Of a stretch of 64,000 bases of DNA, positions 8,876-26,988 are shown piece after piece; the first letter of the stretch is position 1, and every line of letters begins with the position of its first letter. Origin of the DNA: Nitrospirota bacterium (GTDB lineage: Bacteria; Nitrospirota; Thermodesulfovibrionia; Thermodesulfovibrionales; UBA6898); assembly GCA_016215155.1 (NCBI GenBank), contig JACRLQ010000008.1:702-64701 (forward strand), in the 5' to 3' direction. The notes under the pieces were generated by a model. That model saw only the letters and a program-made list of their open reading frames with translations, had not been told where the DNA came from and searched no databases. A program made the position numbers and the translations under genes.

Positions 8876-9396
8876 CAGTGGCTCCTCATCCGTTTTTTTG
8901 CAAGCACTATCGCCCCGACCACCGCTATCAGAAGGACAAGAGACGCGATCTCGAAGGGAAACAGGTACTCTGTGTAAAGGATCTGCCCCAGGACCTTCGT
9001 ATGCGTGACGCGCTGTATAAGGTCGACAGTGAAATTGCCCTTCGGGCCAAGGCTCACGGACAACATCGAGGCGGCAAGACCAACGAATATGCCGCCCGAA
9101 ATCAGCACGGCCGCCGGCCAGGACCCGACAAAGCGGGCCGACTCGAGCTCTTCTTTTAAGTTCAACAGCAGGACGACGAAAAGGAACAGCACGAGGATCG
9201 CCCCCGCGTAAACGATCACCTGTATGGCGGCGATGAACTCCGCGTTCAAAAATAGATACATGCTCGCTATATGGAAAAACAGAAGGAGCATCCACATGAC
9301 GCTATGGACCGGGTTTTTGCGGGTTATCACAAGCAACGAAAGGACTATGATCGCGAAAGCGAAATAGCCGAAAAATAACTGTGGCAGCATGCTCAT
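8875..9396 (-). CDS. nuoJ: NADH-quinone oxidoreductase subunit J
   Basis: Membrane subunit of 173 residues with five predicted helices. The helix 3 region ([25 protein letters not shown]) with the conserved VYAGAI segment, linked to the pi-bulge of complex I, is clear. Its start overlaps nuoI by 4 bases and its stop overlaps nuoK by one base. It ends in TGA, which shows that TGA is a normal stop in this operon. Confidence 0.96.
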
Positions 9397-9947
9397 TCCT
9401 TCCCCCTCTGCTTTATCCTGCTGAAGAGGGCCTGGTCTTCATGCGCCCTGAAGTCCTCGGAAAGCGGTCTCCAGAACTTGTTGTAATACTGCCTGCCCTT
9501 TTCTCCTGCAAAATATTTGTCCCAGTTTTCAAGGAGCCTTTCCTTTGTCATATAGAAGGCCTCCCTCTTATAACTCGAATACTCATAGTGCTCGCTGAGG
9601 GATATCGCGCCGAAGGGACAGGCCTCGACGCAGAACCCGCAGAATATGCACCTTACGAGGTCTATCTCATAACGCTCGACGATCTTTTTATTGTCGTCGC
9701 CTTCGGCGGTGTAAATATGGATGCACTGGGACGGGCAGTACGCGCCGCAGAGGCCGCACCCGACGCATTTCATCCTGCCTTCGTCGTCCTTGGCGAGGGC
9801 GTGGAGCCCCCTGTACCCGGCGGCCACGGTGGGTTTCACCATAGGATAACGCCTCGTCACCGGGGCCTTAAAGAGAGTCCGGAACGTAAGCGCGAGGCCC
9901 TTTAGGATCTCGGGGAAAAACAGGTATTTGATTATCGAATTACTCAT
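9393..9947 (-). CDS. nuoI: NADH-quinone oxidoreductase subunit I
   Basis: Peripheral 8Fe ferredoxin-like subunit, 184 residues. The two [4Fe-4S] motifs, CVGCGLCGAYCPSQCI and CIFCGFCVEACPFGAI, bind clusters N6a and N6b, which pass electrons towards N2 in NuoB. The C-terminal extension (from about residue 125) is somewhat longer than in E. coli and rich in charged residues. Directly abuts nuoH. Confidence 0.97.
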   Translation of the reverse strand: MSNSIIKYLFFPEILKGLALTFRTLFKAPVTRRYPMVKPTVAAGYRGLHALAKDDEGRMKCVGCGLCGAYCPSQCIHIYTAEGDDNKKIVERYEIDLVRCIFCGFCVEACPFGAISLSEHYEYSSYKREAFYMTKERLLENWDKYFAGEKGRQYYNKFWRPLSEDFRAHEDQALFSRIKQRGKE

Positions 9948-11006
9948 CTAGAGCCATCCCATTATTTTCAGCGTTCCGGTAAGGACGATATTAAAAAGCG
10001 CGATCGGGATAAGGACCTTCCAGCCGATGGCCATCAGCTGGTCATACCTGTACCGGGGCAGGGTCGCCCTTATCCAGTAATAAAAGAACATAAACGCGTA
10101 GACCTTCGCCAGGAATACGACCACCCAGAATATCGCCGGCACCTGGTAGAGAAACGGCAGCGCGTCCATTACGAATTTGGGGAGAGTCCAGCCGCCCAGA
10201 AAACAGATCGTGCCTATCGAAGACATTATGAGCATGCCCGTGTATTCGCCCAGGAAGAACATCGCGAACCGGAAGCCGCTGTACTCTGTAAAATATCCGG
10301 CCACGAGCTCGCTTTCGGCCTCGGGAAGGTCGAAGGGAAGCCTGTTCGTCTCTGCGAACATCGCCACCATGAAGACAAAAAACCCGATGAACTGCGGTAT
10401 CACGTAAGCTCCGGTCGGGTAGGCGAACTGGCCCTTTACGATATCTGTAAGATTGAGCGAGCCCGCCATGATCATCACTCCTACCAGGCTCAGGCCCATA
10501 GGTGTTTCATAACTTATGACCTGGGACGCCGAGCGGAGGCCGCCCAGGAACGCGTACTTTGAACCGGAAGACCAGCCCGACATCACTATGCCGTAGGCCC
10601 CCAGGGAGGACATCGCAAGGAGAAACAAAATTCCGACATTGATGTCGGCGACTACAAACCCGTCGAAAAACGGCAGCACCGAAAGAGACGTAAGCGCCGA
10701 GATAAAAAATATCACGGGGGAGAGGTAGAATATCGGCTTGTCCGCGTTGGCCGGGATGATGTCTTCCTTGAAAAAGAGCTTTATCCCGTCCGCAAAGGGC
10801 TGGAAAAGTCCGTACGGGCCTACCTCTCGGGGCCCCAGTCTGAACTGCATATGGGCGATGACCTTCCGCTCCCAGTAGGTCGCGTAGGCCACGTGAAGAA
10901 GGGTCACCGAAAAGACGACCACAATCTTAAGCAGGGCTATGAAAATTTCGCCTAAAATTCCAAAAGACCTGATAAAGGTCAGGGCCTGCATAAATAGATC
11001 GCTCAT
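9948..11006 (-). CDS. nuoH: NADH-quinone oxidoreductase subunit H
   Basis: Membrane subunit of 352 residues, eight helices, forming the quinone-channel junction. Visible family segments are YWERKVIAHMQFRLGPREVG, SGWSSGSKYAFLGGLRSASQ and the acidic loop FAETNRLPFDLPEAESELVA. Its ATG overlaps the nuoG TGA (ATGA arrangement). Confidence 0.97.
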   Translation of the reverse strand: MSDLFMQALTFIRSFGILGEIFIALLKIVVVFSVTLLHVAYATYWERKVIAHMQFRLGPREVGPYGLFQPFADGIKLFFKEDIIPANADKPIFYLSPVIFFISALTSLSVLPFFDGFVVADINVGILFLLAMSSLGAYGIVMSGWSSGSKYAFLGGLRSASQVISYETPMGLSLVGVMIMAGSLNLTDIVKGQFAYPTGAYVIPQFIGFFVFMVAMFAETNRLPFDLPEAESELVAGYFTEYSGFRFAMFFLGEYTGMLIMSSIGTICFLGGWTLPKFVMDALPFLYQVPAIFWVVVFLAKVYAFMFFYYWIRATLPRYRYDQLMAIGWKVLIPIALFNIVLTGTLKIMGWL

Positions 11007-13585
11007 GAACTCACCTTCCCGACAGACTCCACCGTGACCTCTGTCGCGCAGACGGCGGGCGCCTTTAAAACAGGGTCTAAAATATTTCCGGCAAGGCTTA
11101 ACGCCCCTTTGCCTTCAAAGATATTAGGCACGAGGACGACAGATGGTTCGACCTCCCCGTCAACGGAAAGCCGCAGTTCGATCGAATGTGATTTTGACGA
11201 TATCCTTACCATGTCACCGTCTTTGAGGGACAAGGCCCCGGCAGTCCCGGGGTCCATCCTGGCGACGGATTCAGAATACATCTTCACAAGGGCGGGAGAC
11301 TTCCGGCTCAACGTCCCGGAATGGAAGAGCACCCTGTCGATGCCGAGTGTGATCTTTCCGTCTGAGGCGGTCTCAGGCTTATTAAGAGGTATCTCGCCGA
11401 CAGCCCCCCTGAGCGGCTCGCCCTTATAGGGATAGATGACGTTTCCGGCTGCTATCTCATCGTAGGTAAGGTCCCTGTGGAGAGGGGAAATTTTTGTGAT
11501 CTCTTCAAACACTGCTTCTGAGCCGGCATAATTCATCCCAAAAGACATGTTCTTCGAGATCTCGGCGATTATGCGCCAGTCTTCCATCCCCGCCCTGTTG
11601 ACGGTTTTTCTTACACGCTGGATCCTTCGTTCCATATTTGTGAAAGTGCCGTCTTTTTCGCCCCAGCCGAGCGCCGGAAGGACGACGTCCGCGAGCCTGG
11701 CTGTCTCGGTAAGGAAGAGGTCCTGGACTACGAGGAACTCAAGCTTCCTCATGGAGGCCTCGACATTTGCGCCGTCCGGCAGGTTAAAGACCGTGTTTTC
11801 ACCCATGACATACATCGCCTTCAGATCACCTTTTCCGGCCGCCTCGATCATCTCAAAGATATTGAGGCCGGGCCTTTCGGATATCTTCGTCTTCCAGGCG
11901 TTTTCATACCTCTTTCTGAATTCAGCGTAACCGACAGGCCGGTATCCGGGGAGAAGGTCCGGGGCGCAGCCCATATCGAGCATCCCCTGTTCGTTTGCAT
12001 GGTCGGAAAGAAGATATAGCCTTCCGTTTATGAGATAGTTTATGGCGCATAAAAGGAAAAGCTTATAACCGCTCCCGGCTGACTGGAGCAGATCTTTGCC
12101 TATAACGACCGCGGGCGTACCCGAGGCGGTAAGCTTCCCGATGAAATCCGGATAGTCTTTTTCGGAAACATCGGCCTTCCCGGCCCCTGCCGCATCGACG
12201 ACGGTTTTGATCCGGCTTTCCAGTATAGTGTTCGAACCGGGCAGTCCTTTTCTGGATACAAGTTCCGAGACGATACGTTCCAACAGCGCCGTCTCACGGC
12301 CGCCGCCCGGGGTCAGCTCCACAGGGCTGAAATTCCTGAGCCCGCGGACATGCCCGATCGTAAGGACATTGCCGCCCTTCCTTGAGCAGGCCCTTATCTG
12401 GAGGCCCAGTATCGGATTTATGGTCGTGGGGTCTCCTCCCGCAACCAAAACGGTATCGGAATTCGAGAGCCCGGATATGATGTTTCCGGTCGCCCCCTGA
12501 CCGAAGATATTCTCTATGAACGCCTGAGCTCCGGCGTATCCCATTCTCGCCGTGCTGTCTATGTTGTTCGTCCCGATTACTGCCCTCATGAATTTCTGGA
12601 AGACATAATTGTCCTCGTTCGTACACCGCGGCGAGGCTATGCCGGCGATGGCGTCACCGCCGTTTCTGTCCTTTATCTCTGCCAGCTTTTTGGCGACAAG
12701 CCCGATCGCCTCTTCCCAGGTCGTCTCCTCCAGCACCCCGTTTTTTCTTACCATAGGGGAGGTCAGTCTTTCAGGGTCACCGACAAATTCATATCCGAAC
12801 CTGCCTCGGCTGCAGAGCATGCCGTTATTGACCGGGGAGCCTATCCTCGGCACTACCCTCTTGATCACGTCGTCCCTGACCTGCGCTATAACCGTGCAGC
12901 CGACAGCGCAATAAGGACATACCGTCTCTATGTTCTCTTTGACCTGCCAAGGCCTGTAGCTGTGCCTGTGGAGCCTCGACATGATCGCGCCGACCGGGCA
13001 TACCGAGACGCAATTGCCGCAGTACTCACAGTTATACCTGTTCCCCGAGAAGGGCTCGATATGGGAGTGCCCGCCCCTGTCGATGACACCTATGGCAGAG
13101 GCCCCCTGGACGCCCTCGCACATCCTGACGCACCTCGTACACATGACGCACCGCTCCATATTCCGGACGATCACCGGGTCCTGAAGATTTTCGGTCACAC
13201 GCCTTTTTTTCTCTTTGAACCGGCCTGTCGTCGGCCCGTATTTTTCAACCAGGTCCTGGAGCTCGCACTCGCCGGCCTTGTCGCAATACGGGCAGTCAAG
13301 GGGATGGTTAATGAGGAGAAATTCGAGTATGCCACGCCGCACATCGGCTATCGCCTCCGTCTCGGTCCTCACCGCCATGCCGTCGGTGACCATCAGCGTG
13401 CAGGCCGTCTGGAGCCTCGGCATCTTTTCGACCTCGACAAGACAGAGCCTGCAGCCTCCATATTTTTCGAGCTGCTCGTGCCAGCAGAGGGTCGGGATCT
13501 TTATACCCGCGGACCTCGCCGCCTCAAGCACCGTCACCGCCTTTTCGAGCTTTATCTCTTTGCCGTTAATATTTACCGTTATCAT
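11003..13585 (-). CDS. nuoG: NADH-quinone oxidoreductase subunit G
   Basis: 860 residues. The N-terminus has the [2Fe-2S] ligands (CWHEQLEKYGGCRLC...C), then the His-Cys3 cluster motif HPLDCPYCDKAGEC and two [4Fe-4S] motifs (CVMCTRCVRMC and CEYCGNCVSVCP). The N7-type motif CPYCAVGC...CSRGRFG follows, then a molybdopterin-oxidoreductase-like domain to the end. The site that holds Cys or Sec in formate dehydrogenase reads DSTARMGYAG, so the domain is not a formate dehydrogenase. Overlaps nuoH by 4 bases and starts 2 bp after nuoF. A paralogue lies at 23962-26433. Confidence 0.96.
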   Translation of the reverse strand: MITVNINGKEIKLEKAVTVLEAARSAGIKIPTLCWHEQLEKYGGCRLCLVEVEKMPRLQTACTLMVTDGMAVRTETEAIADVRRGILEFLLINHPLDCPYCDKAGECELQDLVEKYGPTTGRFKEKKRRVTENLQDPVIVRNMERCVMCTRCVRMCEGVQGASAIGVIDRGGHSHIEPFSGNRYNCEYCGNCVSVCPVGAIMSRLHRHSYRPWQVKENIETVCPYCAVGCTVIAQVRDDVIKRVVPRIGSPVNNGMLCSRGRFGYEFVGDPERLTSPMVRKNGVLEETTWEEAIGLVAKKLAEIKDRNGGDAIAGIASPRCTNEDNYVFQKFMRAVIGTNNIDSTARMGYAGAQAFIENIFGQGATGNIISGLSNSDTVLVAGGDPTTINPILGLQIRACSRKGGNVLTIGHVRGLRNFSPVELTPGGGRETALLERIVSELVSRKGLPGSNTILESRIKTVVDAAGAGKADVSEKDYPDFIGKLTASGTPAVVIGKDLLQSAGSGYKLFLLCAINYLINGRLYLLSDHANEQGMLDMGCAPDLLPGYRPVGYAEFRKRYENAWKTKISERPGLNIFEMIEAAGKGDLKAMYVMGENTVFNLPDGANVEASMRKLEFLVVQDLFLTETARLADVVLPALGWGEKDGTFTNMERRIQRVRKTVNRAGMEDWRIIAEISKNMSFGMNYAGSEAVFEEITKISPLHRDLTYDEIAAGNVIYPYKGEPLRGAVGEIPLNKPETASDGKITLGIDRVLFHSGTLSRKSPALVKMYSESVARMDPGTAGALSLKDGDMVRISSKSHSIELRLSVDGEVEPSVVLVPNIFEGKGALSLAGNILDPVLKAPAVCATEVTVESVGKVSS

Positions 13586-13587
13586 GG

Positions 13588-14850
13588 TTATCCCTGTGCC
13601 ATACAGGCCTTTGCCCTGATATGCTCCTCGAACTCAGGCCTGAAATGCTTTATGAAATTCTGCACAACGGACGCGGCCCCGTCACCGAGCGGACAGAACG
13701 TCTTGCCGATCATATTACCCGCGACAGACAAAAGCAGGTCAACATCGCCTTCCTGCCCCTGACCGGCTTCGATCCTCCCCAGGATGGACCTCAACCAGCC
13801 CGTGCCCTCACGGCAGGGAGTGCACTTGCCGCACGATTCATGCTCGAAGAATTTAAGCGCCCGGTAGCAGACCTTCACCAGACAGACGCTCTCGTCCATC
13901 ACGATGACCGCCCCTGAGCCGAGCATGCTGCCGTGTTTGGGCATATTGACGAAGTCCATCTGGCAGTCGATCTTGTCAGGGGGCAGCACCGGCGTGGATA
14001 TACCGCCGGGGATGACGGCCTTTAATTTTTTGCCGCCCTTGATGCCGCCGCAGTGGGTATAAATAATGTCTTTTAGATTGGTACCCATCGGGAGTTCATA
14101 GACCCCGGGCTTCTCCACATGCCCGCTTACGCAGTAGATCTTCGGGCCGGGGCAGTCCGGACTGCCGATCTTTGAATATGTCTCTCCGCCTATCTCGATC
14201 AGATACGGCAGGTTGGCAAGAGTCTCGACGTTATTTACGACCGTAGGTTTCGCGAACACTCCGACGTTTACAGGGAAAGGCGGCTTGATCCTCGGCTGTC
14301 CCTTGTCTCCCTCAAGGGATTCGATAAGGGCCGTTTCCTCTCCGCAGATATAGGCCCCCGCGCCCTGATGGACCGCCAGGTGGAACTTTACGCCTTTGCT
14401 CAGGATATTGTCTCCGAGGAATCCTTTATCGTATGCCTGTTTTATCGCCTTTTCGAGTATATGCTTTGCGGCCGGGTATTCCCCCCTCAGATAAATATAC
14501 CCATATTCAGCGCCGAGCGCGTAGCCGGAAATGGCCATACCCTCGATCAGCATATGGGGGTTCTTCTCCAGGATGGGCCTGTCCTTAAACGTTCCGGGCT
14601 CCCCCTCGTCCGCGTTACAGAGGAGATACTTCGGGGTCTTGGGGTCGCCGGAGGCGAACGTCCATTTCATCGCCACAGGGAACCCGGCGCCGCCGCGCCC
14701 CCTGAGTCCGGCCTTTTTGACCTCGTCGATAATGTCCTTCGGATTTCTGCCAAGGGCCTTCCCGAGGCTCTGGTATCCCCCGACGGACATATACTCCGCG
14801 ATATCTGCTGAGTTCGGGTTTTCTATATTTTTAAGAAGCACCTTTTCCAT
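13588..14850 (-). CDS. nuoF: NADH-quinone oxidoreductase subunit F
   Basis: NADH- and FMN-binding subunit, 420 residues. The flavin/NADH loops GLRGRGGAGFPVAMKW and CNADEGEPGTFKDRPIL are seen, with the N3 cluster motif ESCGKCTPCREGT and the distal Cys in GKTFCPLGDGA. It begins 5 bp after nuoE. In complex I it receives hydride from NADH and passes electrons through N3 to the chain in NuoG. Confidence 0.97.
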   Translation of the reverse strand: MEKVLLKNIENPNSADIAEYMSVGGYQSLGKALGRNPKDIIDEVKKAGLRGRGGAGFPVAMKWTFASGDPKTPKYLLCNADEGEPGTFKDRPILEKNPHMLIEGMAISGYALGAEYGYIYLRGEYPAAKHILEKAIKQAYDKGFLGDNILSKGVKFHLAVHQGAGAYICGEETALIESLEGDKGQPRIKPPFPVNVGVFAKPTVVNNVETLANLPYLIEIGGETYSKIGSPDCPGPKIYCVSGHVEKPGVYELPMGTNLKDIIYTHCGGIKGGKKLKAVIPGGISTPVLPPDKIDCQMDFVNMPKHGSMLGSGAVIVMDESVCLVKVCYRALKFFEHESCGKCTPCREGTGWLRSILGRIEAGQGQEGDVDLLLSVAGNMIGKTFCPLGDGAASVVQNFIKHFRPEFEEHIRAKACMAQG

Positions 14851-14855
14851 GGTTG

Positions 14856-15338
14856 TTACCTGTATTTCTCCAGGATCTCGTCGATATATTTTTCCGTCAG
14901 GTTTTCGTAGAAGTCATCGTTTATGAGCATGGCTGGGGCCGTGCCGCAGGCCCCGATGCATTCCATGATCACAAGTGAGAACCGGTTGTCAGGTGTCGTC
15001 CCGCCGGGCTCGAGCCCGTATTTGTTCTTGAGGAAATCGACCAGCCTCTCGGCCCCCAGGATCATGCAGGACACATTGGTGCAGAGCTGGACGACGTTCC
15101 TTCCCATCGGCCTGTTTTTATACATCGCGTAAAAAGTGCCGACCCCGCGCGCAATCGCCTTCGGGACACCCAGTATTTCGGACACAGCCTCGTAGGCCTC
15201 GGGAGAGAGCCAGCCGAATTCACGCTGGGCGACGTAAAGCGCCGGAAGCAGCGCCGCCCGTGCCGTCGGGTACTTGGCCCGTATCTCCTCGATCTCTTTT
15301 ATGGCTGCCTGACTGAACATTATATCCTTTATATCCAT
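14856..15338 (-). CDS. nuoE: NADH-quinone oxidoreductase subunit E
   Basis: Thioredoxin-fold [2Fe-2S] subunit, 160 residues. All four N1a ligands are present: CTNVSC (C-x4-C) and CIGACG (C-x3-C). The N-terminal helical part with REFGWLSPEAYEAVSEILGV and GVGTFYAMY is typical. It is paralogous to the C-terminal half of the receiver-fused protein at 21018-21938, which carries the same ligand spacing. Confidence 0.97.
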   Translation of the reverse strand: MDIKDIMFSQAAIKEIEEIRAKYPTARAALLPALYVAQREFGWLSPEAYEAVSEILGVPKAIARGVGTFYAMYKNRPMGRNVVQLCTNVSCMILGAERLVDFLKNKYGLEPGGTTPDNRFSLVIMECIGACGTAPAMLINDDFYENLTEKYIDEILEKYR

Positions 15339-15353
15339 CCCGAAATTTTCAAA

Positions 15354-16553
15354 TTATCTGTCGCATTCGCCGAGCACGATATCTATCGTGCCGATGTTGG
15401 CGATAACATCCGCGATAAGTCCGCCCTCACAGAGCCTGGGCATGACGGAGGCATGCACGAAAGACGGGGCCCTGACCCTCATCCTGTAAGGTTTTCCGGT
15501 GCCGTCGCTGACGAAATAGAACCCGAGCTCGCCCTTGGGCACCTCGGTCCCGACATAGACCTCACCCTCGGCTACGGACGGGCCTTTTGTGATCAAAATA
15601 AACTGGTGTATAAGGTGCTCCATGTCCTTCAGGATCATGTCCTTGGGAGGCAGGGTGAATTTCGGCGCGTCGGCCATCACCGCGCCTGCCGGAAGCTTCT
15701 CGACGCATTGCTTGATGATCCGGTTTGCCTGCCTCATCTCCTCGACCCTTACAAGATAACGGTCATAGCAGTCGCCTTTTTTCCCGACCGGCACATCGAA
15801 CTCGACCTGGTCGTAGGCATCGTAGGGCGCATATTTACGCACATCATAATCGACGCCGGAACCGCGCAGGGTCCCGCCCGTAAGGCCCCAGTTGATCGCC
15901 TCCTCCCTGGAGATGACGCCGATGTCAACCGTCCTGTCTTTCCATATCCTGTTTTCCGTGACGAGCGTCTCATAATCGTCCATCTTCGACGGGAAGTCAA
16001 GGACAAAATCATAGAGCTCATCCAGAAACTGCTGGGAGATATCGTTGCGCACTCCGCCCACCCTCGGGTAACTTACCGTCAGCCTCGCGCCGCAGAGTAT
16101 CTCGAAGAGGTCGAGTATCTTCTCCCTCGCCGCCATCGCGTGCAGAAACGGGGTGGTGGCGCCGATGTCAAGGACGTGTGTTCCGAGCCATATTATATGG
16201 CTTGACAGCCTGCCCATCTCGGCAACGATAGTACGGATGAACTTTGCCCTCGCAGGGGCCTCGATGCCGAAGAGTTTTTCGACGGCATTTACATAGCCGA
16301 CGTTGTTGTTCATCGAAGAGATATAATCGAGACGGTCACTGAGGGGAAGGGCCGCGAAGTAGGTCCTGTTTTCGCCGAGCTTTTCGACCCCGCGGTGAAG
16401 GTATCCGACATAGGGGGTGCATTTGACGACGGTCTCTCCGTTTAAGTGCAGGACCAGCCTCAGAACTCCGTGCGTGGCGGGGTGCTGAGGCCCAAGGCTG
16501 ATAGTCAGTTCCTTGGTCTCAAAGGTCTTGTCCGTGTCGTCGAGTTCCTGCAT
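15354..16553 (-). CDS. nuoD: NADH-quinone oxidoreductase subunit D
   Basis: 49-kDa subunit, 399 residues, which with NuoB forms the quinone site. Family segments are [33 protein letters not shown], and near the C-terminus [16 protein letters not shown]. It is separate from nuoC (in some bacteria the two are fused) and lies 17 bp downstream of it. Confidence 0.97.
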
Positions 16554-16570
16554 ATTCCTTTTCCGCTATT

Positions 16571-17113
16571 TTATTTCTGATACCAGTCGAATTCTTTGTA
16601 ACGCTTTGCCCTGTCGAGCACGTCGGTAAAGCCTTTCCATTCCATGTCAGGGCCGGGTCCCTTTAAGGGATAGTCCTTCCTCAGGGGATGGCCCTCCCAG
16701 TCCTCGGGAAGGAGTATCCTTCTTAAGTCGGGATGGCCCTTAAAGACGATGCCGAACATGTCGAAGCATTCGCGCTCGTGCCAGTCCACGCCTCTCCAGA
16801 CCGAGATGACCGAGTCAATGGACGGTTCCGACTCCTCCACCTCGGCCTTCAGCATGATCCTGTGGCGGTGTTCTACCGAGTAAAGATTGTACAAAACCGC
16901 GAAGCGGTTTTCCTTCTTCCCCTTGTAGTCAAGTCCGCAGAGGTCAACCAGGAAATCCATATAAAGTGAGGGGTCGTCATGGAGATAGCGGCAGATGTCG
17001 ACGATCCTGCCTTTTTTTAATGTGACGGAAACCTGCTCCCTGAATTCCCTTATATCAAGGACCTCTTCCGGAAACCTGTCTTTTATATTTTCAGCAATCG
17101 CTATTGGCTGCAT
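16571..17113 (-). CDS. nuoC: NADH-quinone oxidoreductase subunit C
   Basis: 30-kDa subunit, 180 residues. The signature [29 protein letters not shown] is followed by HPLRKDYP. It is unfused and starts 70 bp after the end of nuoB, the widest gap in the 5' half of the operon. No gene was seen in that gap. Confidence 0.96.
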
Positions 17114-17183
17114 TATACCCTAATCGTAAAAATTTTTTTTCTGTGCTTCTGTTTCTGAGACGTAACGGTCAAACCGGCTTCTG

Positions 17184-17711
17184 TTATCTCCAACGGCTCC
17201 ATCGGAACTGCTCGTCCCTGATCTTCTCCTGAAGTTTGATAATGCCTTCAATAAAGGCCTCAGGTCTGGGCGGACAGCCCGGGATGTAGACATCAACCGG
17301 CAGGAAGGTGTCACAGCCCTGCACGGTACTGTACGAATTGAATATGCCCCCGCTGTTGGCGCAGCTTCCGACCGAGATGACATACCGGGGTTCCGGCATC
17401 TGGTCATAGACCCGCCTGACTACCTCGGACATCTTCTTCGTAACTGTGCCGGCCACGAACATGAAGTCCGACTGCCGGGGGGAGCCCCTGGGAATAATTC
17501 CCATCCTGTCTAGATCATTGTGACTGGCATACACGGCCATCATTTCGATGGCGCATCAGGCCAGGCCGAACGTCATGGGCCAGAGCGACGAAACACGCGC
17601 CCAGTTTATAAGCTTGTCAAAAGAAGATATGATGACGTTCGGGGCAAGGATTCTCGTCCCCTCTTCCATTTCGACAAGCGACTGGGAACCGACTGTGGTT
17701 ATTAATCCCAT
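17184..17711 (-). CDS. nuoB: NADH-quinone oxidoreductase subunit B with in-frame TGA at an N2 ligand; candidate selenoprotein
   Basis: Reading from the ATG at 17711 (GGAGG 8 bases upstream, 10-bp overlap with nuoA) gives intact NuoB on both sides of one in-frame TGA at 17556-17558, codon 52. The context is [23 protein letters not shown], where the family has GLACCAIEMM, so TGA replaces the first of the two adjacent Cys ligands of cluster N2. The second Cys of the pair, the Cys in VGSCANSGG and the Cys in IPGCPPRPE are present. With the TGA read through, the protein is 175 residues, a normal length. If TGA is a true stop, translation could restart only at the MM after it, losing 56 residues and both paired ligands. 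The other 13 nuo genes are intact. Possible readings are selenocysteine, a sequencing error, or a real nonsense mutation. Confidence 0.85.
17521..17558 (-). promoter_or_regulatory. SECIS-like hairpin after the nuoB TGA
   Basis: On the coding strand the TGA is followed by 20 bases and then a 7-base loop (CGTGTAT, 17529-17535). The stem is TGATGGC (17536-17542) pairing with GCCA-TCA (17521-17528), with one bulged G at 17524. Spacing, loop size and a G at loop position 2 fall within the published description of bacterial SECIS elements as I recall it. A competing hairpin, GCCATC/GATGGC with a GAAAT loop, lies closer to the TGA. The same bases code conserved residues, so chance is possible. Confidence 0.4.
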
Positions 17712-18058
17712 ACAAAGGCCTCCTTTCTCCAGGCGTAGACATAGCCTACAAGGAGTATTATGATGAAAATTATCATTTCGATAAACGCGTAAAGCCCCAG
17801 CTGGTTAAAGACTACCGCCCAGGGGTAAAGAAAAACAGCTTCAACGTCGAAGACCACAAAAAGCATGGCGATGATATAAAACTTCACCGAAAACCTGACA
17901 TGGGGCTCCCCGACAGGGGCGTTTCCGGACTCGTACGGCATCAGCTTGTCGAAGTAGGGCCTTTTCAGCCTGAAGAGCTCGCCGACCAAGAGGGCGCCTA
18001 TTCCAAAGGCCGTCGCTACGGCAAGAAACACCATAACTGGCATATACTCAAATGGCAT
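17702..18058 (-). CDS. nuoA: NADH-quinone oxidoreductase subunit A
   Basis: Small membrane subunit with three helices. [44 protein letters not shown] contains the family Cys-loop region (here Ser replaces the Cys seen in many members) and the conserved Asp/Glu in [11 protein letters not shown]. The frame allows a start at 18073 or at 18058. I prefer 18058 (118 residues, [11 protein letters not shown]), because the predicted promoter would leave almost no leader before 18073. First gene of the nuo operon; its end overlaps nuoB by 10 bases. Confidence 0.93.
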
Positions 18059-18083
18059 AAAAGTTCCGGGCATGACGATATAA

Positions 18084-18216: not shown

Positions 18217-19797
18217 ATGCGAGTCGAAAAATCACTACACTCACTAACAGGCAAGCTGCTTCTGACCATCGGCACACTGATGCTCGTGGGCAGCACCCTC
18301 TTCTGGTATTTCCTTCTTAAACATCAGGAAAAAGAGCTCCTCGAGAACTCCGTAAAGTATGCCTACTCCTTCGTTGACTACGTAAAAAAGAGCACCAGAT
18401 ACGGCATGATGACGGCCAATAAGCTGCTCATCCAGCAGACCATCGAGGCCATAGGTTCCTCCGAAGGCATCAGGAATGTAAGGATCGTCGAGTGCACCGG
18501 CAGGATCGACTATTCATCCAATCCGGCGGACGTCGGAAAGACGCTCGACAAAAACAGACCCCCCTGTTCAGGCTGCCACGGTCCCGCGGGTAAAACCCGT
18601 GACTCCGCCATCGTATCTTTCAGCAAGGACTCCGATGACATGCGGGTACTGAAAATAATCCACCCGATCTATAATGAAAAGCCGTGTTACACCGCGGCCT
18701 GCCACTTCCACACCGAAGACAAAAAAATGCTTGGGATCATAGAGGCGGAGGTATCTCTGGCCCACCTTGACATGAGCATTAAAAACCAGGGCATCGCCAT
18801 AACAATTTATATATTGATTTTTCTTTTTGTCATCTCCGTGGCCCTCTGCACGATCCTCTGGAACCTCGTGTCGACCCCTGTGAGCCTCCTCAAGCAGGGG
18901 ATGGAACGGGTTGCCGGAGGCGACCTTGACTATACCCTGACCATCAATACGAGGGACGAAATGGGGGACCTGGCGAACGCGTTCAATGCCATGACGGCCG
19001 ACCTCAAAAAGGCCAAGAACGAACTCCTTGAGTGGGGCAATACCCTTGAGAAAAAAGTCGACGATAAGACCAGGACGATACAGATGGCGCAGGCCCAGCT
19101 GATCCATTCCGAAAAACTGGCGTCGCTGGGCAGGATGGCCGCCGGGGTCGCCCACGAGATCAACAGCCCGCTTACGGGCATCGTCACCTTCGGACACCTG
19201 CTGCTCAAACGGTTCCCTCCGGGTTCGCAGGAGCGCGAGGACGTCGAGGTCATCATCGAGCAGGCCAACAGGTGCTCGAACATAATAAAGGGGCTCCTGG
19301 GGTTTGCCAGGGCGTCCGCAGCCGAAAAAGCGCCGGTCAACATTAATGACGTGCTCGACAGGTCCCTGAACATCGTCCGGAACAAGGCCGATTTTTTCAA
19401 TATAAAACTGGTCACGGAATTCGATGATTCACTCAGACGCGTAAAGGCCGACGCCTCACAGCTGCAGCAGGTATTTCTTAACATGATAATGAACGCGGCC
19501 GACGCGGTGGAAGGCAAAGGGACGATATCGATAATCACGAAAAACGTGATCGAGGACAATACTGAATTCGTAGAGATAGAGTTCAGGGACACGGGCACCG
19601 GTATAAGCGAGGAGAACATAGAAAAGATTTTCGAGCCGTTTTTTACCACAAAACCGGTAGGCAAAGGCACCGGGCTGGGGCTTGCCGTGAGCCACGGGAT
19701 CGTGCTCGACCACGGAGGGAAGCTCCTGGTCAAAAGCAAGCCCGGCGAGGGCACAAGCTTTTTCGTAAAATTCCCGGCGGACAAGGAAAAACCATGA
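18217..19797 (+). CDS. Sensor histidine kinase with two c-type haem motifs in the periplasmic domain
   Basis: 526 residues. TM1 is at about 12-33 and TM2 at about 192-217, leaving a 160-residue periplasmic domain. This carries CSGCH (117-121) and CYTAACH (157-163), a standard CxxCH and a CX4CH c-haem attachment motif. A HAMP segment (about 212-264), a coiled linker, the H-box GVAHEINSPL (His 313), the N-box (FLNMIMNAADAV) and the G-boxes (DTGTGI, GKGTGLGLAV) follow, so the kinase core looks active. By family knowledge, haem in a periplasmic sensor reports redox state or a small ligand. It begins the plus-strand operon that continues to 26433, and its stop overlaps the next receiver gene by 4 bases. 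The haem reading rests on motifs only. Confidence 0.9.
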   Translation: MRVEKSLHSLTGKLLLTIGTLMLVGSTLFWYFLLKHQEKELLENSVKYAYSFVDYVKKSTRYGMMTANKLLIQQTIEAIGSSEGIRNVRIVECTGRIDYSSNPADVGKTLDKNRPPCSGCHGPAGKTRDSAIVSFSKDSDDMRVLKIIHPIYNEKPCYTAACHFHTEDKKMLGIIEAEVSLAHLDMSIKNQGIAITIYILIFLFVISVALCTILWNLVSTPVSLLKQGMERVAGGDLDYTLTINTRDEMGDLANAFNAMTADLKKAKNELLEWGNTLEKKVDDKTRTIQMAQAQLIHSEKLASLGRMAAGVAHEINSPLTGIVTFGHLLLKRFPPGSQEREDVEVIIEQANRCSNIIKGLLGFARASAAEKAPVNINDVLDRSLNIVRNKADFFNIKLVTEFDDSLRRVKADASQLQQVFLNMIMNAADAVEGKGTISIITKNVIEDNTEFVEIEFRDTGTGISEENIEKIFEPFFTTKPVGKGTGLGLAVSHGIVLDHGGKLLVKSKPGEGTSFFVKFPADKEKP

Positions 19798-20171
19798 GTA
19801 AAGGGAAAATTCTGGTCATCGACGATGAAGACATCGTCAGGACGAGCTGCAGCCGGACTTTAAGCCCTGAAGGCTATGAGGTGAAGCTCGTAAAAAGCGG
19901 CTTTGACGGGTTTAAACTCCTCGAAGAGGAGCAGTTCGATATTGTGCTGACCGACCTCAAGATGCCCGAGATCGACGGCATCGAGATATTAAGAAGGATA
20001 AAAGAGAAGTGGCCGGAGGTCGAGGTCATTATCATAACCGGATACCAGACGGTTGACACCGCCGTGAAGTCGATAAAACTGGGGGCTTTCGACTACCTCG
20101 AAAAGCCCTTCACTCCGGACGGCCTTATTTCATCGGTTACAAAGGCGATGGACCACAAAAAAACAGACTAA
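19794..20171 (+). CDS. Single-domain response regulator (CheY-like receiver)
   Basis: 125 residues, receiver domain only. The acidic pocket is IDDED near residue 10, the phospho-acceptor is D54 in VLTDLKMPEIDGIE, and the Lys in YLEKPFTP and the Thr in IITGYQT are present. No output domain. The 4-base overlap with the kinase makes it the likely direct phosphate acceptor, perhaps an intermediate for the two receiver fusions that follow. Confidence 0.93.
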   Translation: MSKGKILVIDDEDIVRTSCSRTLSPEGYEVKLVKSGFDGFKLLEEEQFDIVLTDLKMPEIDGIEILRRIKEKWPEVEVIIITGYQTVDTAVKSIKLGAFDYLEKPFTPDGLISSVTKAMDHKKTD

Positions 20172-20205: not shown

Positions 20206-20973
20206 ATGGAAAAGAAGGGGAAGATTTTAGTACTTGACGATGACCCCGTTGTAACGCTCAGCTGTAAAAGGATCCTCGGCGCCGAAGGGTATAACATAAT
20301 CACGACCAGCAGGGGCGAAGACGCCATCAAGAAAGTAGCCAATGAGGAATTCGACCTTCTTATCTCCGATGTGAGACTGCCCGACATCAATGGCATCACC
20401 GTCCTTCGGGAGACCAAGATAGTCCAGCCCAAGCTGGACGTGGTCATAATAACCGGCTACCCCACCCTCGATGACGCGAAGGAGTCCGTAAAACTCGGGG
20501 CCTTTGAATTCATAGAGAAACCCTTCACCCCGGAGTTCATGTTAAATGTCGCCAGGAAGCTCTTCGACAACAGGGGCTGGATATTGAGGAAGGCGTTCAT
20601 CGATGACTTCAGAAACGAGATCGTGTCGTTGAGGGACAGCGCCAATCCGGTCATCTTCTATAAGGAAGGGACCTGGGCGCGGCCGCTCAGCAATAATATC
20701 TGGGAAGTAGGGTGCGACGTGCGTTACTGGCTTTTAAGCGGCCAGCTGGCATTTATCGACATAGCAAACAATCTCCCTGCCGTCATGGCCGGCGAGTCGT
20801 TCGCCAAGATAGTCTCGGGAAGCGGGCAGGAAGACTCGCTTGTGTCTCCGATGACGGGGAGGGTAGTCGAGATCAACAAAGAGGCAAATCAGGCGATGAG
20901 CGCGCTTGTGCGGGACAACCTAAGTGAAGGATGGCTGCTCTGGCTTGCCAGGGTCGAACCTTTGAACATATAG
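20206..20973 (+). CDS. Receiver domain fused to a GcvH-like (lipoyl-type) domain lacking the lipoyl lysine
   Basis: 255 residues. Residues 1-125 are a receiver with D55 in LLISDVRLPDINGI and the EKPFTP motif. Residues about 150-250 resemble glycine-cleavage H protein: WEVGCDVRYWLLSGQLAFIDI, LPAVMAGESFAKI, SLVSPMTGRVVEINKEAN and NLSEGWLLWLARVEP line up in order with the H-protein barrel. Where H protein has ESVKAVSD with the lipoylated Lys, this protein reads SGSGQEDS, so the Lys is a Gly by eye alignment. Lipoylation is therefore unlikely, and the domain may act as a binding module. GGAGG lies before the ATG. GcvH-like proteins are known in other redox gene clusters (for example the lipoate-binding proteins of sHdr systems), but a receiver fusion is unusual. 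Confidence 0.8.
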   Translation: MEKKGKILVLDDDPVVTLSCKRILGAEGYNIITTSRGEDAIKKVANEEFDLLISDVRLPDINGITVLRETKIVQPKLDVVIITGYPTLDDAKESVKLGAFEFIEKPFTPEFMLNVARKLFDNRGWILRKAFIDDFRNEIVSLRDSANPVIFYKEGTWARPLSNNIWEVGCDVRYWLLSGQLAFIDIANNLPAVMAGESFAKIVSGSGQEDSLVSPMTGRVVEINKEANQAMSALVRDNLSEGWLLWLARVEPLNI

Positions 20974-21017: not shown

Positions 21018-21938
21018 ATGGCAGGAGGACCTAAAATATTGATAGTCGATGACGAACCGGTCGTCATCAAAAGCGCTGAACGGGTATTAAAAAGCGAAGG
21101 GTATGATATCGAAGGCGCCGGCGGCGGCCGCGAGGCTATCCTGAAGCTCGAAAAGGGCGGATATGACCTTGTCTTTACCGACCTCAAGATGCCCGAAGTC
21201 GACGGGCTGACGCTTATTAAATGGATCAAAAAGACCAACCCCCATATAGGGATTGTCATCATAACGGGATATCCCTCCCAGGACACTATAAGGGACGCGC
21301 TTGAACTGGGCATTATTGACTACGTGCCCAAACCCTTCACCCCGTCAGTACTGCTGGACGTCACGGAGAGGGCGGTGCAGTGGTCTGAGGGAAGAAAACC
21401 CAAAGAGGACAAAGCGGGCGAGGAGTTCCCCCCTGCCATGGCGGCAGAGCTTGACAGGGTCATAGGCGCCTTCAGGAATGTCCCCGGAGGGCTGATCCCG
21501 GTCCTCCAGAGGGCCCAGGAGATAGTAGGGTACCTTCCCCCGGTCGTACAAAAGAGGATCGCCAAGGGCCTGAACCTCTCCGAGGCCGAGGTCCACGGGG
21601 TAGTCTCCTTTTATTCCTTCTTTACGATGAAGCCGCGGGGCGACCATAACATCCGCGTATGCCTCGGCACCGCCTGTTATGTCAAAGGCATCGAGGGAGT
21701 GCTCGAAAAGATAGAGGAAAACCTTAAGGTGGGCATAGGAGAGACGACCGGGGACAGAAGGTTTTCCATCGAAGGCGTAAGATGTCTCGGCGCGTGCGGC
21801 CTTGCCCCCGTCATGATGATAGACCAGGAGACATACGGCGCCCTCACACCGGCCAAGGCCATAGGGGTGATCAAAGGCTTCGACCCTTCCGTCGGGGGCG
21901 CTGAAGTTACCGCAGCTGCGGCACAGGAGGAGGGTTAA
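21018..21938 (+). CDS. Receiver domain fused to a NuoE-like [2Fe-2S] subunit
   Basis: 306 residues. Residues 1-125 are a receiver with D55 in LVFTDLKMPEVDGL, a Thr in IITGYPSQD and KPFTP. From about residue 145 the protein is NuoE/HydC-like: LIPVLQRAQEIVGYLP, VHGVVSFYSFF, then the four cluster ligands in CLGTAC (C-x4-C) and CLGACG (C-x3-C), with LAPVMMID. It is thus a 24-kDa subunit of an NADH oxidoreductase joined to a signalling domain. GAGGAGG precedes the ATG, and the next gene (NuoF-like) begins one base after its stop. Phosphorylation of the receiver could gate assembly or activity; that is inference. Confidence 0.9.
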   Translation: MAGGPKILIVDDEPVVIKSAERVLKSEGYDIEGAGGGREAILKLEKGGYDLVFTDLKMPEVDGLTLIKWIKKTNPHIGIVIITGYPSQDTIRDALELGIIDYVPKPFTPSVLLDVTERAVQWSEGRKPKEDKAGEEFPPAMAAELDRVIGAFRNVPGGLIPVLQRAQEIVGYLPPVVQKRIAKGLNLSEAEVHGVVSFYSFFTMKPRGDHNIRVCLGTACYVKGIEGVLEKIEENLKVGIGETTGDRRFSIEGVRCLGACGLAPVMMIDQETYGALTPAKAIGVIKGFDPSVGGAEVTAAAAQEEG

Positions 21939-21939: not shown

Positions 21940-23961
21940 ATGCCAAGACTGACTGTTGATGATATATTGAGGACAAAGGAAAGTCACTCGGCGGGCCTGG
22001 CCCTTAAAGAAGGCGGCTATACCGCGAAGGTCACCGTGCATATGGGGACCTGCGGGGTGGCGGCAGGCGCCAACCCTGTTATGGCCGCGCTCAGGGACGA
22101 GATGGAAAAAGCCGGCAGAAAAGATATATTCGTGACGACTTCAGGCTGCGCCGGGCTCTGCGCCCGTGAACCGCTCATAACCGTCGAGACCATTAACCAG
22201 CCGCCTGTAAGATACTGCGACATGAGCGATCAGAAGATGAGGGACATATTCGGTGAGCATATCATGTCCGGAAGGGCGGTGGACAAATACGCGCTCGTAA
22301 GCGGCACTGAAATAACCGATGCGCCCGTATCCGGCCAAAAGCCAGGCCCATCCGTTAAAACTGACGTCACAGGGCCGTCCGAAAAGCCGGCCATACCCTC
22401 CATAGAGGATACCCCCTTTTTCAAATATCAGGTGCTCCGGGTCCTCAGGAACAAGGGCGTCATCGACCCCGAGAGCATCGAAGACTATATCGCGCGCGAC
22501 GGGTACCAGGCAGTCGCGAAGGCCCTGACCCAAATGAGTTCTGAAGACATCGTAAAGGTGGTCAAGGACTCGGGGCTGAGGGGAAGGGGCGGGGCGGGGT
22601 TCCCCACGGGCATGAAGTGGGAGTTTGCCTCGAAGGTCCCCTCTGAAGTCAAATATATGTTATGTAACGGCGATGAAGGCGATCCCGGGGCCTTTATGGA
22701 CAGGTCCGTAATGGAGGCCGACCCTCACTCCGTCATCGAGGGTATGATCATCGGGGCAAAGGCGATCGGCGCCCATCACGGCTATATATACGTCAGGGCG
22801 GAATATCCCCTTGCCGTCAAACGTCTCCAGCTGGCGATCGACCAGGCTACGGAAAGGGGCCTCCTCGGGAAGAACATCCTGGGCTCGGGGTTCGACTTTG
22901 AACTGGGCATTTATCTCGGCGCGGGAGCCTTTGTATGCGGCGAGGAGACGGCCCTTATGAGGTCCCTTGAAGGAAAGCGCGGAATGCCCAGACCCAGGCC
23001 CCCGTTTCCGGCCCAGAAAGGCCTGTGGGACAAGCCCTCAGTGCTCAATAACGTCGAGACACTCGCTCAGATCGCCCCGATCATCTTAAACGGCGCGCAG
23101 TGGTACAGGTCCCTGGGCACGGAGAAAAGCTCCGGCACGAAGGTGTTCGCCCTCACCGGCGCTATAAGCAACGTAGGCCTGGTCGAGGTCCCGATGGGTA
23201 TCCCTTTAAGAAGGGTGATCTACGACATCGGCGGGGGCATAAAGAAGAAGGGAAGAAAATTCAAGGCCGTACAGCTCGGCGGGCCCTCCGGGGGCTGCAT
23301 ACCCGAGTCGCACCTCGACACACCCGTGACCTACGAGGACATAGTTGCGACCGGCGCTATCATAGGCTCAGGCGGAATGGTCGTCATGGATGACGCAAAC
23401 TGCATGGTAATCACCGCGAGGTTCTTCCTGGACTTTACGGCTGACGAGTCCTGCGGGAAATGTCCTCCCTGCAGGGTAGGCACGAAAATACTGCTGGATA
23501 TCCTGACGGACATAACCGCGGGCAGGGGAAAGGAAAGCGACATAGAGACCCTTGAGGACCTCTCAAGAGACATCATCGCGACCTCGCTCTGCGGCCTCGG
23601 GCAGACCGCGCCTAACCCTGTATTGACGACCCTCAGATATTTCAAACACGAATATGAAGACCATATAAAACATAAATGGTGCAGGTCAGGGGTCTGTCGT
23701 GACCTTGCCACGTTCAGGATAGACGAGAAACTCTGCAAGGCGTGCGGGGCCTGCCTGAGGGCCTGCCCTTCGAAGGCGATCGTCGGAGAGAAGAAGGTGC
23801 CCCACAAGATTATCCAGGAACTCTGCGTTCACTGCAGGACGTGTTTTGATACCTGCAAATTCAATTCGATAATGATACTGCCGGCAGGGTTTGAGGGAGA
23901 CCCCAATGAACTGCCCGGCGTGGGCGCAGCTGACGCCGGAGCAAAGAAGGGGGACGCATAA
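21940..23961 (+). CDS. NuoF/HydB-like NADH- and FMN-binding subunit with extra Fe-S domains
   Basis: 673 residues in three parts. Residues about 25-110 are a thioredoxin-like domain with C38, C70 and C74 (MGTCGV and SGCAGLC). Residues about 150-585 are the 51-kDa NuoF core, with GLRGRGGAGFPTGMKW, CNGDEGDPGAFMDR, ESCGKCPPCRVGT and TSLCGLGQTAP. Residues about 600-655 are a double [4Fe-4S] ferredoxin (CKACGACLRACP and CVHCRTCFDTCKF). This layout is that of HydB from NAD-linked [FeFe] hydrogenases and NADP-reducing hydrogenases. No hydrogenase catalytic subunit is encoded here. It is coupled to the NuoG-like gene, whose ATG follows its stop directly. Confidence 0.93.
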   Translation: MPRLTVDDILRTKESHSAGLALKEGGYTAKVTVHMGTCGVAAGANPVMAALRDEMEKAGRKDIFVTTSGCAGLCAREPLITVETINQPPVRYCDMSDQKMRDIFGEHIMSGRAVDKYALVSGTEITDAPVSGQKPGPSVKTDVTGPSEKPAIPSIEDTPFFKYQVLRVLRNKGVIDPESIEDYIARDGYQAVAKALTQMSSEDIVKVVKDSGLRGRGGAGFPTGMKWEFASKVPSEVKYMLCNGDEGDPGAFMDRSVMEADPHSVIEGMIIGAKAIGAHHGYIYVRAEYPLAVKRLQLAIDQATERGLLGKNILGSGFDFELGIYLGAGAFVCGEETALMRSLEGKRGMPRPRPPFPAQKGLWDKPSVLNNVETLAQIAPIILNGAQWYRSLGTEKSSGTKVFALTGAISNVGLVEVPMGIPLRRVIYDIGGGIKKKGRKFKAVQLGGPSGGCIPESHLDTPVTYEDIVATGAIIGSGGMVVMDDANCMVITARFFLDFTADESCGKCPPCRVGTKILLDILTDITAGRGKESDIETLEDLSRDIIATSLCGLGQTAPNPVLTTLRYFKHEYEDHIKHKWCRSGVCRDLATFRIDEKLCKACGACLRACPSKAIVGEKKVPHKIIQELCVHCRTCFDTCKFNSIMILPAGFEGDPNELPGVGAADAGAKKGDA

Positions 23962-26433
23962 ATGACCGTAGAACTTACCATCAACGAAAAAAAGATAACT
24001 GTCGAAGAGGGGACGACCATCCTCAAGGCCGCCCAGCAGAACGGGATAAAGATCCCCAACCTGTGTTTCGACAAGAGGCTTAGGCCCTATGGAGGCTGCA
24101 GGCTCTGCGTTGTCGAGGTCGAAGGCCAGCCCCGGCTCTTCGCCTCCTGTTCGACCCCGGTCGCTCCCAATATGGTCGTAAAGACGGACACCCCGAAGCT
24201 CAAAAAGGCCCGGCAGACCGTTTTGGAACTGCTGCTGGTCCACCATCCTCTTGACTGCCCGATCTGCGACAAGGCGGGAGAATGTGACCTCCAGGACCTC
24301 GCCTTCGAATTCGGAAAGCCCGAGGGCAGGTTCATACGCCACAGGAAGGCGATGCCGCCGGATGTCAGGGGACCGCTGGTCGAACTGACCGCAAACCGCT
24401 GTATCCTCTGCGGCAAGTGCGTGAGGATATGCTCCGAACATCAGGGACGCGCAGCGCTGGGACTTATAAACAGAGGGTTCTCTACGGTAGTACAGCCCGC
24501 CTTCGGCGAGATCCTCGAATGCGACTATTGCGGCCAGTGCATCGACATATGCCCGACAGGCGCCCTCCTTTCGAAGCCCTTTAAGTTCCAGGCACGGGCA
24601 TGGTTCCTTGAAGAAAACGACACGATATGCCCCTTCTGCGGATGCGGATGCACACTCACGCTGGGCGTAAGGGAAGGGAAGATATTGAGGTCAAGGGGCA
24701 GGGAAGACACGGGCAGAAGCGACGGCAACCTCTGCGGAAGGGGCAGGTTCGGCGTGGATTACATATACAGCGAAGGCCGGCTCAGGACCCCCATGATAAA
24801 AAAAGACGGTGTCCTTACGCCTGTCTCCTGGGACGAGGCCTTGGCCTTCATAAGCGAAAGGCTCAAGTCCATAATGGCAGCCCATGGCAAGACCTCTGTC
24901 GGGGCGATCGGATCACACAGGTGCACAAATGAAGACAACTATATGTTGAGGAAGTTTATGGTGAACGTGGTCGGGTCGGCCAACATGGATTCGTCCGCAG
25001 CCTTCGGCTATTCAAAGGTCCAGAAGGCCCTCGAAAAGGCCTTCGGGACAAAAAACCACCCGATCTCACTCAAGGCCCCGCTCGGAAAAGACGTCATATT
25101 CATCGTCGAGTCGGACATAAGCATCACGCACCCGATATTCGGCCTCAATATACTTCAGGCAAAAAGGGAAGGCTCCAAACTCATCGTTGCCGATACCAGG
25201 GAGACGAAGCTTACCCGGCACAGCACCAGCCGCCTGAAGATGAAACAGGGGACATCGGTGGCGCTTTTAAACGGGGTTGCGAAGATCATCATAGACAAGA
25301 ATCTGTTTAACAGGGAGATCGTCTCGAAGATGAGCGGCTTCGCGGAATTCGCGAAGGCGTTGGCCCAGTATACTCCCTCACATGTCTCGAAGATCACGGG
25401 AATCCCCGAGGAAACGCTCGTTGAGACGGCAACCGCCCTTGCCAGGGCAAAAAACAGGATGATCGCCTTTACCGTGAGCGTCAACGAAAACACCAAGGGC
25501 GCCGACCTGGTGCTCGCCGCCTCGAACCTCGTCATACTCCTTGGGGAAGAGACGGACGCACTTCAGATACCCGCCGAATATGCAAATACCTACGGCGTCT
25601 ACAAGGTCGGAGTAAGGCCTGATGCAGACGCGCCAAACGGCAGGGACCTGTTCGGGATGCTCTACGAACCGGGGGCCCTCAAGGCGCTTTACATCATGGG
25701 CGAAGACCCGGTTTCCGCCTTCCCGTTCAACTCGAAGATAACGGCGAACCTCACCGGTCTGGACCTCCTGGTGGTGCAGGACATAGCGCTTACCGACACG
25801 GCAAAGCTCGCGGACGTTGTCCTCCCTGCGGCGGCATGGGGAGAAAAGGACGGCACGTTCATAAATGCCGAGGGAGTGGCGCAGGACCTGAAAAAGATTG
25901 TGGATGCGCCGGGGCAGGCCCTTCCTGACTGGAAGATCCTGAGGAACCTTTCCCTTGCGATGGGCAGGGAGATCGCGGTAAGAAATATTTCCGACATAAC
26001 GGCGGAGGTCATGGGCCAGACAAGGGAAGGTGAGCAGACCTCAGACATCAGACAATTCAACCCTGTGGCTTATACGCCACAGGAAGAGCCGGACGAGGGA
26101 TATCCGCTTTCGCTTATTACAAGAGACGTGCTCCAGCATTCAGGCACCATGTCCACGCGCTCGAAGTCGCTTGACCTTGTGGTGTCCGAGGCCCTGGTTG
26201 AGATCAATACCGGGGATGCGAAAAGGCTCGGGGTATCAGACGGCAGCCACGTAAAGATATCGTCGAGGCGGGGCGCCGTCTATCTTAAAGCAAAGGTGAC
26301 GGATGCGGTGCCCGAAGGAAGTGTATACGCTCCGCTTCACTTCCCTCACGGGAAGATCAATTCTCTTATCTATCCGTCTGAAAACGGCGCCGCGGGGGCC
26401 GAGGCAGTCAAGGTCGAGGTGGCCGGAGGCTGA
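23962..26433 (+). CDS. NuoG-like Fe-S/molybdopterin-fold subunit (no catalytic Cys/Sec)
   Basis: 823 residues, paralogous to nuoG at 11003-13585. Cluster motifs in order: [2Fe-2S] CFDKRLRPYGGCRLC...C, HHPLDCPICDKAGEC, CILCGKCVRIC, CDYCGQCIDICP, CPFCGCGC with LCGRGRFG downstream. A molybdopterin-oxidoreductase-like domain and a C-terminal barrel (VLQHSGTMSTRSKSL) follow. Formate dehydrogenase has Cys or Sec in its N-N-x-D-x-C-A-R-x-C/U motif; here the segment reads ANMDSSAAFGYSKV with no Cys or TGA, so formate oxidation is not expected. Probably an electron-wire or adaptor subunit of an NADH:acceptor oxidoreductase. Last gene of the operon; an intrinsic terminator follows. Confidence 0.92.
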   Translation: MTVELTINEKKITVEEGTTILKAAQQNGIKIPNLCFDKRLRPYGGCRLCVVEVEGQPRLFASCSTPVAPNMVVKTDTPKLKKARQTVLELLLVHHPLDCPICDKAGECDLQDLAFEFGKPEGRFIRHRKAMPPDVRGPLVELTANRCILCGKCVRICSEHQGRAALGLINRGFSTVVQPAFGEILECDYCGQCIDICPTGALLSKPFKFQARAWFLEENDTICPFCGCGCTLTLGVREGKILRSRGREDTGRSDGNLCGRGRFGVDYIYSEGRLRTPMIKKDGVLTPVSWDEALAFISERLKSIMAAHGKTSVGAIGSHRCTNEDNYMLRKFMVNVVGSANMDSSAAFGYSKVQKALEKAFGTKNHPISLKAPLGKDVIFIVESDISITHPIFGLNILQAKREGSKLIVADTRETKLTRHSTSRLKMKQGTSVALLNGVAKIIIDKNLFNREIVSKMSGFAEFAKALAQYTPSHVSKITGIPEETLVETATALARAKNRMIAFTVSVNENTKGADLVLAASNLVILLGEETDALQIPAEYANTYGVYKVGVRPDADAPNGRDLFGMLYEPGALKALYIMGEDPVSAFPFNSKITANLTGLDLLVVQDIALTDTAKLADVVLPAAAWGEKDGTFINAEGVAQDLKKIVDAPGQALPDWKILRNLSLAMGREIAVRNISDITAEVMGQTREGEQTSDIRQFNPVAYTPQEEPDEGYPLSLITRDVLQHSGTMSTRSKSLDLVVSEALVEINTGDAKRLGVSDGSHVKISSRRGAVYLKAKVTDAVPEGSVYAPLHFPHGKINSLIYPSENGAAGAEAVKVEVAGG

Positions 26434-26507: not shown

Positions 26508-26738
26508 CTATAAGGAGTTCCACTCCGTCGGCATCAATGTTCGACCAATAATCCCTTCTACTTCTTTAATCATCATTTTAAGTTGAGGGACAGAATATTC
26601 GTCATTCGAAGGAATGGCTAAACGATGTTGACTGAAAACCATAAACTGGTGCCTGGTCCCCGAAAAAGGCCCCTCAAACCCGAGTTTGCGCACACGACTT
26701 ATAAAATCGCGACGCTTACAGGGCGTCCACTGATTCAC
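26508..26738 (-). CDS. hicA: HicA-type mRNA interferase toxin
   Basis: 76 residues, HicA/YcfA family: KRRDFISRVRKLGFEGPFSGTRHQFMVF followed by RLAIP and a C-terminal LKMMIKEVEGI helix. The His in GTRHQF is the catalytic His position of the family. Somewhat longer at the C-terminus than the shortest members. The start overlaps hicB by 23 bp, so the order is antitoxin first, toxin second. Confidence 0.85.
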   Translation of the reverse strand: MNQWTPCKRRDFISRVRKLGFEGPFSGTRHQFMVFSQHRLAIPSNDEYSVPQLKMMIKEVEGIIGRTLMPTEWNSL

Positions 26739-26988
26739 GGGAAGGTTCTTTATTTAAGTCGAGTTCTCCGATGACAGGAAGCGGGTGCCCAAGCTTTATA
26801 CCGACAAAGATCCAGTCCTCAAGGGTAGCATGCAACTCATCCTCGCATTCGCGCAAGGTGGTCCCAAAAGACAAAACCCCTTTGCAGACAGGTATGCGCC
26901 CGGCATATGTTCCATCGTCAAGCTTGTCGTATACAGCCTGTGCCAAGGCCTGCTCAACATATTCGCTCAAGATGAATCGTACAGTCAT
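26716..26988 (-). CDS. hicB: HicB-type antitoxin
   Basis: 90 residues. LDDGTYAGRIPVCKGVLSFGTTLRECEDELHATLEDWIFVGIKLG is the HicB partial RNase-H-like fold. The C-terminal DNA-binding helix is short or absent. Paired with HicA by overlap. It would block the toxin and repress the pair. Confidence 0.8.
   Translation of the reverse strand: MTVRFILSEYVEQALAQAVYDKLDDGTYAGRIPVCKGVLSFGTTLRECEDELHATLEDWIFVGIKLGHPLPVIGELDLNKEPSRESVDAL

Follow-up and report, generated by a model that had tools for sequence, protein, structure and literature searches.

We describe RR-H, a response regulator whose output domain derives from the glycine-cleavage H-protein (GcvH) and is probably not lipoylated, and our favoured reading, held with modest confidence, is that it docks on or regulates an NADH-oxidising NuoEFG module in a manner tuned by phosphorylation. 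The gene lies in a 64,000-nucleotide stretch of a Nitrospirota bacterium contig (JACRLQ010000008.1, assembly GCA_016215155.1), hereafter the window. The features of the locus are as follows.

3615 to 18073, minus strand: divergent complex I operon, from nuoA near 18073 to antiporter-like subunits near 3615
18217 to 19797, plus strand: membrane histidine kinase, first gene of its operon, with haem-c-like motifs CSGCH and CYTAACH in the putative periplasmic part
19794 to 20171, plus strand: stand-alone receiver
20206 to 20973, plus strand: RR-H, response regulator with a GcvH-like output domain, 255 amino acids, ATG start at 20206, stop codon ending at 20973
20206 to 20562, plus strand: receiver domain of RR-H, residues 1-119
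20656 to 20961, plus strand: GcvH-fold domain of RR-H, residues 151-252
20815 to 20829, plus strand: hairpin tip S204-G205-S206-G207-Q208, which replaces the lipoyl-lysine turn, between predicted strands 198-204 and 209-213
21018 to 21938, plus strand: receiver fused to a NuoE-type [2Fe-2S] thioredoxin-like subunit (RR-NuoE)
21940 to 23961, plus strand: NuoF-like flavoprotein with extra ferredoxin domains
23962 to 26433, plus strand: NuoG-like iron-sulfur/molybdopterin-fold subunit (481 bits against the NuoG model, cut-off 470)

The plus-strand operon encodes, in this order, histidine kinase, stand-alone receiver, RR-H, RR-NuoE, NuoF-like and NuoG-like proteins, and stands back to back with the complex I operon, confirming with its NuoE/F/G-like genes downstream of RR-H the oxidoreductase setting that the initial annotation had given. 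The genes of the complex I operon were named from their translations; a search showed its NuoE, NuoF and NuoG to be homologous to the plus-strand genes. Models of formate dehydrogenase give the NuoG-like protein a score too, but it is unlikely to be such an enzyme, because it reads SSAAFGY at the place where formate dehydrogenases carry Sec or Cys. Directly past the operon, an open reading frame at 26716-26988 on the minus strand resembles, by eye, a HicB-type antitoxin. CxxCH motifs recur in 32 of 34 long homologues of the kinase, which is likely a redox sensor, and in some relatives (L039, L055) a full NtrC-type regulator takes the place of the stand-alone receiver. RR-NuoE was found in 48 of 61 genomes, that of the window being one of them, so a redox subunit seems to be a response regulator in its own right.

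The N-terminal half of RR-H matches Response_reg in Pfam (5.4e-25), and its receiver fold was recovered by structure search with a Z score of 17.2. D11, D12, D55, T83 and K105 are invariant among 65 homologues, so that the acidic pair and the phospho-accepting Asp of a receiver are present together with its Thr and Lys. With its catalytic residues intact, the receiver is predicted to be phosphorylation-competent.

The proposal that NuoEFG is the partner is made because the gene neighbourhood is conserved. In 72 of 81 loci RR-NuoE lies downstream of RR-H in the same orientation, directly adjacent in 58 and about 2-2.5 kb further on in 14. These 81 loci are not all independent, and two are too short, leaving 79 that are testable; since L046 and L047 also contain RR-NuoE in overlapping reading frames (by eye), the count rises to about 74 of 79. 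NuoF- and NuoG-like genes usually accompany RR-NuoE. The intervening 2-2.5 kb are occupied either by an NfnA/NfnB-like pair (L070 by Pfam; L058, L061, L080, L089 and L090 by eye) or by HATPase, DRTGG and PHP-like genes (L095 partly by Pfam; L092, L096 and L102 by eye), in L095 (3170-5308) as HATPase, DRTGG, PHP-like and a second HATPase. Genes of this latter type accompany clostridial bifurcating hydrogenases. The association also extends beyond the RR-NuoE operon: in two copies in G361 and one in G042, RR-H lies 3' of a NuoG-type gene, beside plain nuoEFG. One G361 copy has the order HdrA/C/B-like, nuoE, nuoF, nuoG, RR-H, and NuoF matches were found at a fitting distance in the other copy and in G042. 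At L123:171-9134 and L098:7428-9145, HdrA/C/B-like genes, nuoEFG, RR-H and a gene resembling those of solute-binding proteins all run in the same direction, as an Hdr-NuoEFG operon that includes RR-H but no RR-NuoE. Among 61 genomes, counted without correction for phylogeny, both RR-H and RR-NuoE occur in 42 (a remnant of RR-H in G050 included), RR-H only in one, RR-NuoE only in six and neither in 12.

Docking on NuoEFG, which we infer as the best reading of this conserved neighbourhood, has counter-examples. L104 and L079 encode RR-H with neither RR-NuoE downstream nor adjoining NuoEFG genes, and in G027 kinase, receiver and RR-H are followed by hrcA/grpE/dnaK-like genes, with NuoEFG genes likewise missing beside them. 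Conversely, RR-NuoE operons occur without RR-H (G030, G045, G052, G060 and two incomplete cases). Both observations are counted against docking, and genes may share an operon because they are regulated together, not because their products touch. The G027 arrangement would suit a role of RR-H wholly inside the signalling pathway, in which its H-fold docks either on the kinase or on a receiver, stand-alone or NtrC-type, and acts as a phosphate sink, a scaffold or a regulator of the kinase, NuoEFG being no more than regulated cargo of the operon; so would the kinase plus receiver or sigma-54 regulator that lie upstream of RR-H in many loci. We regard this account as unlikely, yet the most serious of the alternatives, given that a matched kinase or receiver is missing immediately upstream in several loci and that RR-H sits beside nuoEFG, away from any matched kinase or receiver, in G361 and G042. 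Among possible partners NuoEFG agrees best with the neighbourhood, the three exceptions leaving room for a role in signalling only.

The initial annotation had assigned the C-terminal half of RR-H to the H-protein fold, and both profile and structure comparisons uphold this. It matches Pfam GCV_H at 3.3e-6 and 27.4 bits (curated cut-off 22.2 bits), as do 73 of 76 family members, and the only solved structures found by sequence matches of this part are glycine-cleavage H-proteins, which the family profile matches at 1.4e-7. An AlphaFold2 model of the full-length protein, built with 65 homologues, has a mean pLDDT of 71.2 and a pTM of 0.46; the H half is confident, and the linker is undefined (residues 106-149, pLDDT below 50). 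Since the receiver filled the match lists of the full-length structure search, the H domain was predicted alone from 76 sequences (pLDDT 81.6, pTM 0.76). H-proteins then occupied ranks 1-19 in VIA-align, with Z scores of 8.5-10.8 and rmsd values of 2.6-3.6 Å over 96-105 residues, ahead of the first other chain, a biotinyl domain at Z 6.2, and all of rows 1-22 in Foldseek. The domain shares with GcvH (PF01597) its fold, its length, aligned Trp, Gly, Pro and Asn residues and a C-terminal GW; it differs in lacking the lipoyl lysine and the ESxKxxSD motif, in a turn that is one residue longer and in its fusion to a receiver.

The whole genome contains two GCV_H matches, RR-H and a canonical GcvH on contig 20 (G000:C20) that retains its lipoyl lysine. 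This lipoylatable GcvH offers a possible competitor for a mimic, and the fold and general contour of an H-protein are kept in RR-H; RR-H might then be a non-lipoylated mimic that competes for ligase, octanoyltransferase or dihydrolipoamide dehydrogenase and in this way controls a lipoamide enzyme or the metabolism of lipoate. Against such a role, which we consider improbable, the ESxKxxSD recognition motif around the lysine is gone from the RR-H family, and none of the RR-H neighbours examined could be recognised as a gene for lipoate metabolism or glycine cleavage; translations of window positions 1-28 kb likewise gave no recognisable gcvT or gcvP.

In an ordinary glycine-cleavage H-protein, lipoic acid is held by a lysine. 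The corresponding segment of RR-H reads VSGSGQEDSL (residues 203-212, window positions 20812-20841), where the aligned segments are ESVKAASDI in E. coli GcvH and ESTKSTSAV in the GcvH of the same genome. Residues 205-208 form the hairpin turn in the model (85-88 in domain-model numbering), and because of the additional residue the partner of the lysine is G207, give or take one position. The column of the E. coli lipoyl lysine holds Gly in 66 of 67 RR-H homologues and Lys in none of the 67, and position 207 is Gly in 74 of 76 aligned domains. The loss of the lysine at the SGSGQ tip, noted earlier for this one protein, is therefore no accident of a single genome. Nor did the homologues reveal a conserved lysine at the tip: position 208, one residue on, is Q in 44 domains, R in 10, K in 10 and E, D, N, H, A, T, P or G in the other 12. 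The family alignment contains no invariant lysine close to the tip, the invariant lysine of the domain (K153) being distant in sequence.

The ten domains with K208, in the predicted hairpin turn, are what might speak for a domain that has kept a cargo, lipoate or some other acyl group, attached to this lysine in some members or to a different residue. They are scattered on the tree, at least seven changes being needed, and lipoylation at this position was rejected as the function of the family; with position 208 mostly Q or R and K153 far away, residual carriage of any kind appears very improbable. Judged from the alignments, lipoate carriage cannot be a shared function, because lysine near the tip is occasional and never conserved, and the earlier statement that the domain can no longer carry lipoate thus finds support at the level of the whole family.

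Within-genus comparisons of the H domain gave dN values of 0.04-0.16 with dS near saturation, 22 columns are invariant in the 76 domains, and the domain is under strong purifying selection and not decaying. Full-length RR-H was found by profile search in 95 of 396 Nitrospirota genomes, every one in the class of the window's own genome. Peptide patterns of RR-H run against the contigs of all genomes yielded 62 loci with titles nearly all from Nitrospirota; beyond this phylum, coverage is that of patterns from close relatives, and the few other titles may represent mislabelled MAGs. No family members were found in plasmids and viral contigs, the single match in the plasmid collection being weak (27.5% identity). 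In G050, RR-H is a remnant with an in-frame TGA (L115:3846-4010), and kinase, receiver and RR-NuoE stay, which makes it a natural loss. A decaying, functionless domain would fit this fragment and the missing lipoylation site, but is contradicted by purifying selection, the invariant residues and retention in 95 genomes, and can be dismissed with near certainty.

There is precedent in mycobacteria for the binding of a response regulator to complex I: Rv3143, an orphan regulator of their Nuo complex, could be cross-linked to NuoD, and NuoB, C, D, E, F, G and I were recovered together with it on purification (PMC9274095). Like Rv3143-like regulators, RR-H is encoded next to nuo genes, and Rv3143 acts via contact with complex I (PMC9274095); Rv3143, however, is a bare receiver contacting NuoD, whereas RR-H adds an H-protein output domain and has NuoEFG as neighbours. 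LbpA of Hdr-like sulfur oxidation likewise shows a GcvH fold recruited into an oxidoreductase operon, with a strictly conserved lipoylated lysine and, some archaeal exceptions aside, two conserved cysteines (PMC6067878). In the RR-H family, by contrast, the site has no conserved lysine and the domain no invariant cysteine: across the 76 domains, no column that is invariant or at the 90% level holds a Cys, C170 reaching 90% only in a narrower set of 65. With neither the conserved lysine nor the conserved cysteine pair, RR-H was rejected as a member of the sHdr LbpA group. The genes beside RR-H also resemble NADH-oxidising modules of the NuoEFG/BfuABC type (PMC9304861) in their NuoE, NuoF and NuoG-like subunits, but the NuoE here is fused to a receiver. 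The terms "response regulator" and "receiver" are absent from the text of PMC9304861, and no description of a receiver-GcvH fusion was found in the open-access literature; a co-mention in PMC5701242 (D. desulfuricans) proved unrelated to such a fusion.

On the simplest account, the H-protein fold was recruited to serve as the output domain of a response regulator and works through contact. For docking on NuoEFG, a plausible sequence of events would begin with the haem-motif kinase sensing a periplasmic redox signal and phosphorylating the receivers of the RR-H operon. Phosphorylation of RR-H would change the docking of the rigid H-fold on the NADH-oxidising module, and the changed docking may tune electron entry or complex assembly, the NuoE there having a receiver of its own. 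Sensing is accordingly placed in the upstream kinase as its more likely site, and the suggestion of the initial annotation that the H domain might itself be a sensor found no support. A more far-reaching version, which we offer tentatively and hold to be possible rather than probable, is that the two-component system acts directly on the electron-transfer complex, through a cofactor-stripped H-fold and a NuoE that each bear a receiver, with phosphorylation gating NADH electron flow without transcription.

For annotation, the label "glycine cleavage H protein" is misleading when applied to proteins of the RR-H type. Together with the adjacent RR-NuoE, RR-H offers a direct way to test whether an NADH-oxidising module is under post-translational phospho-control. 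In a wide and constrained family, a classic cofactor carrier seems to have become a domain for protein interaction alone, governed by a two-component system.
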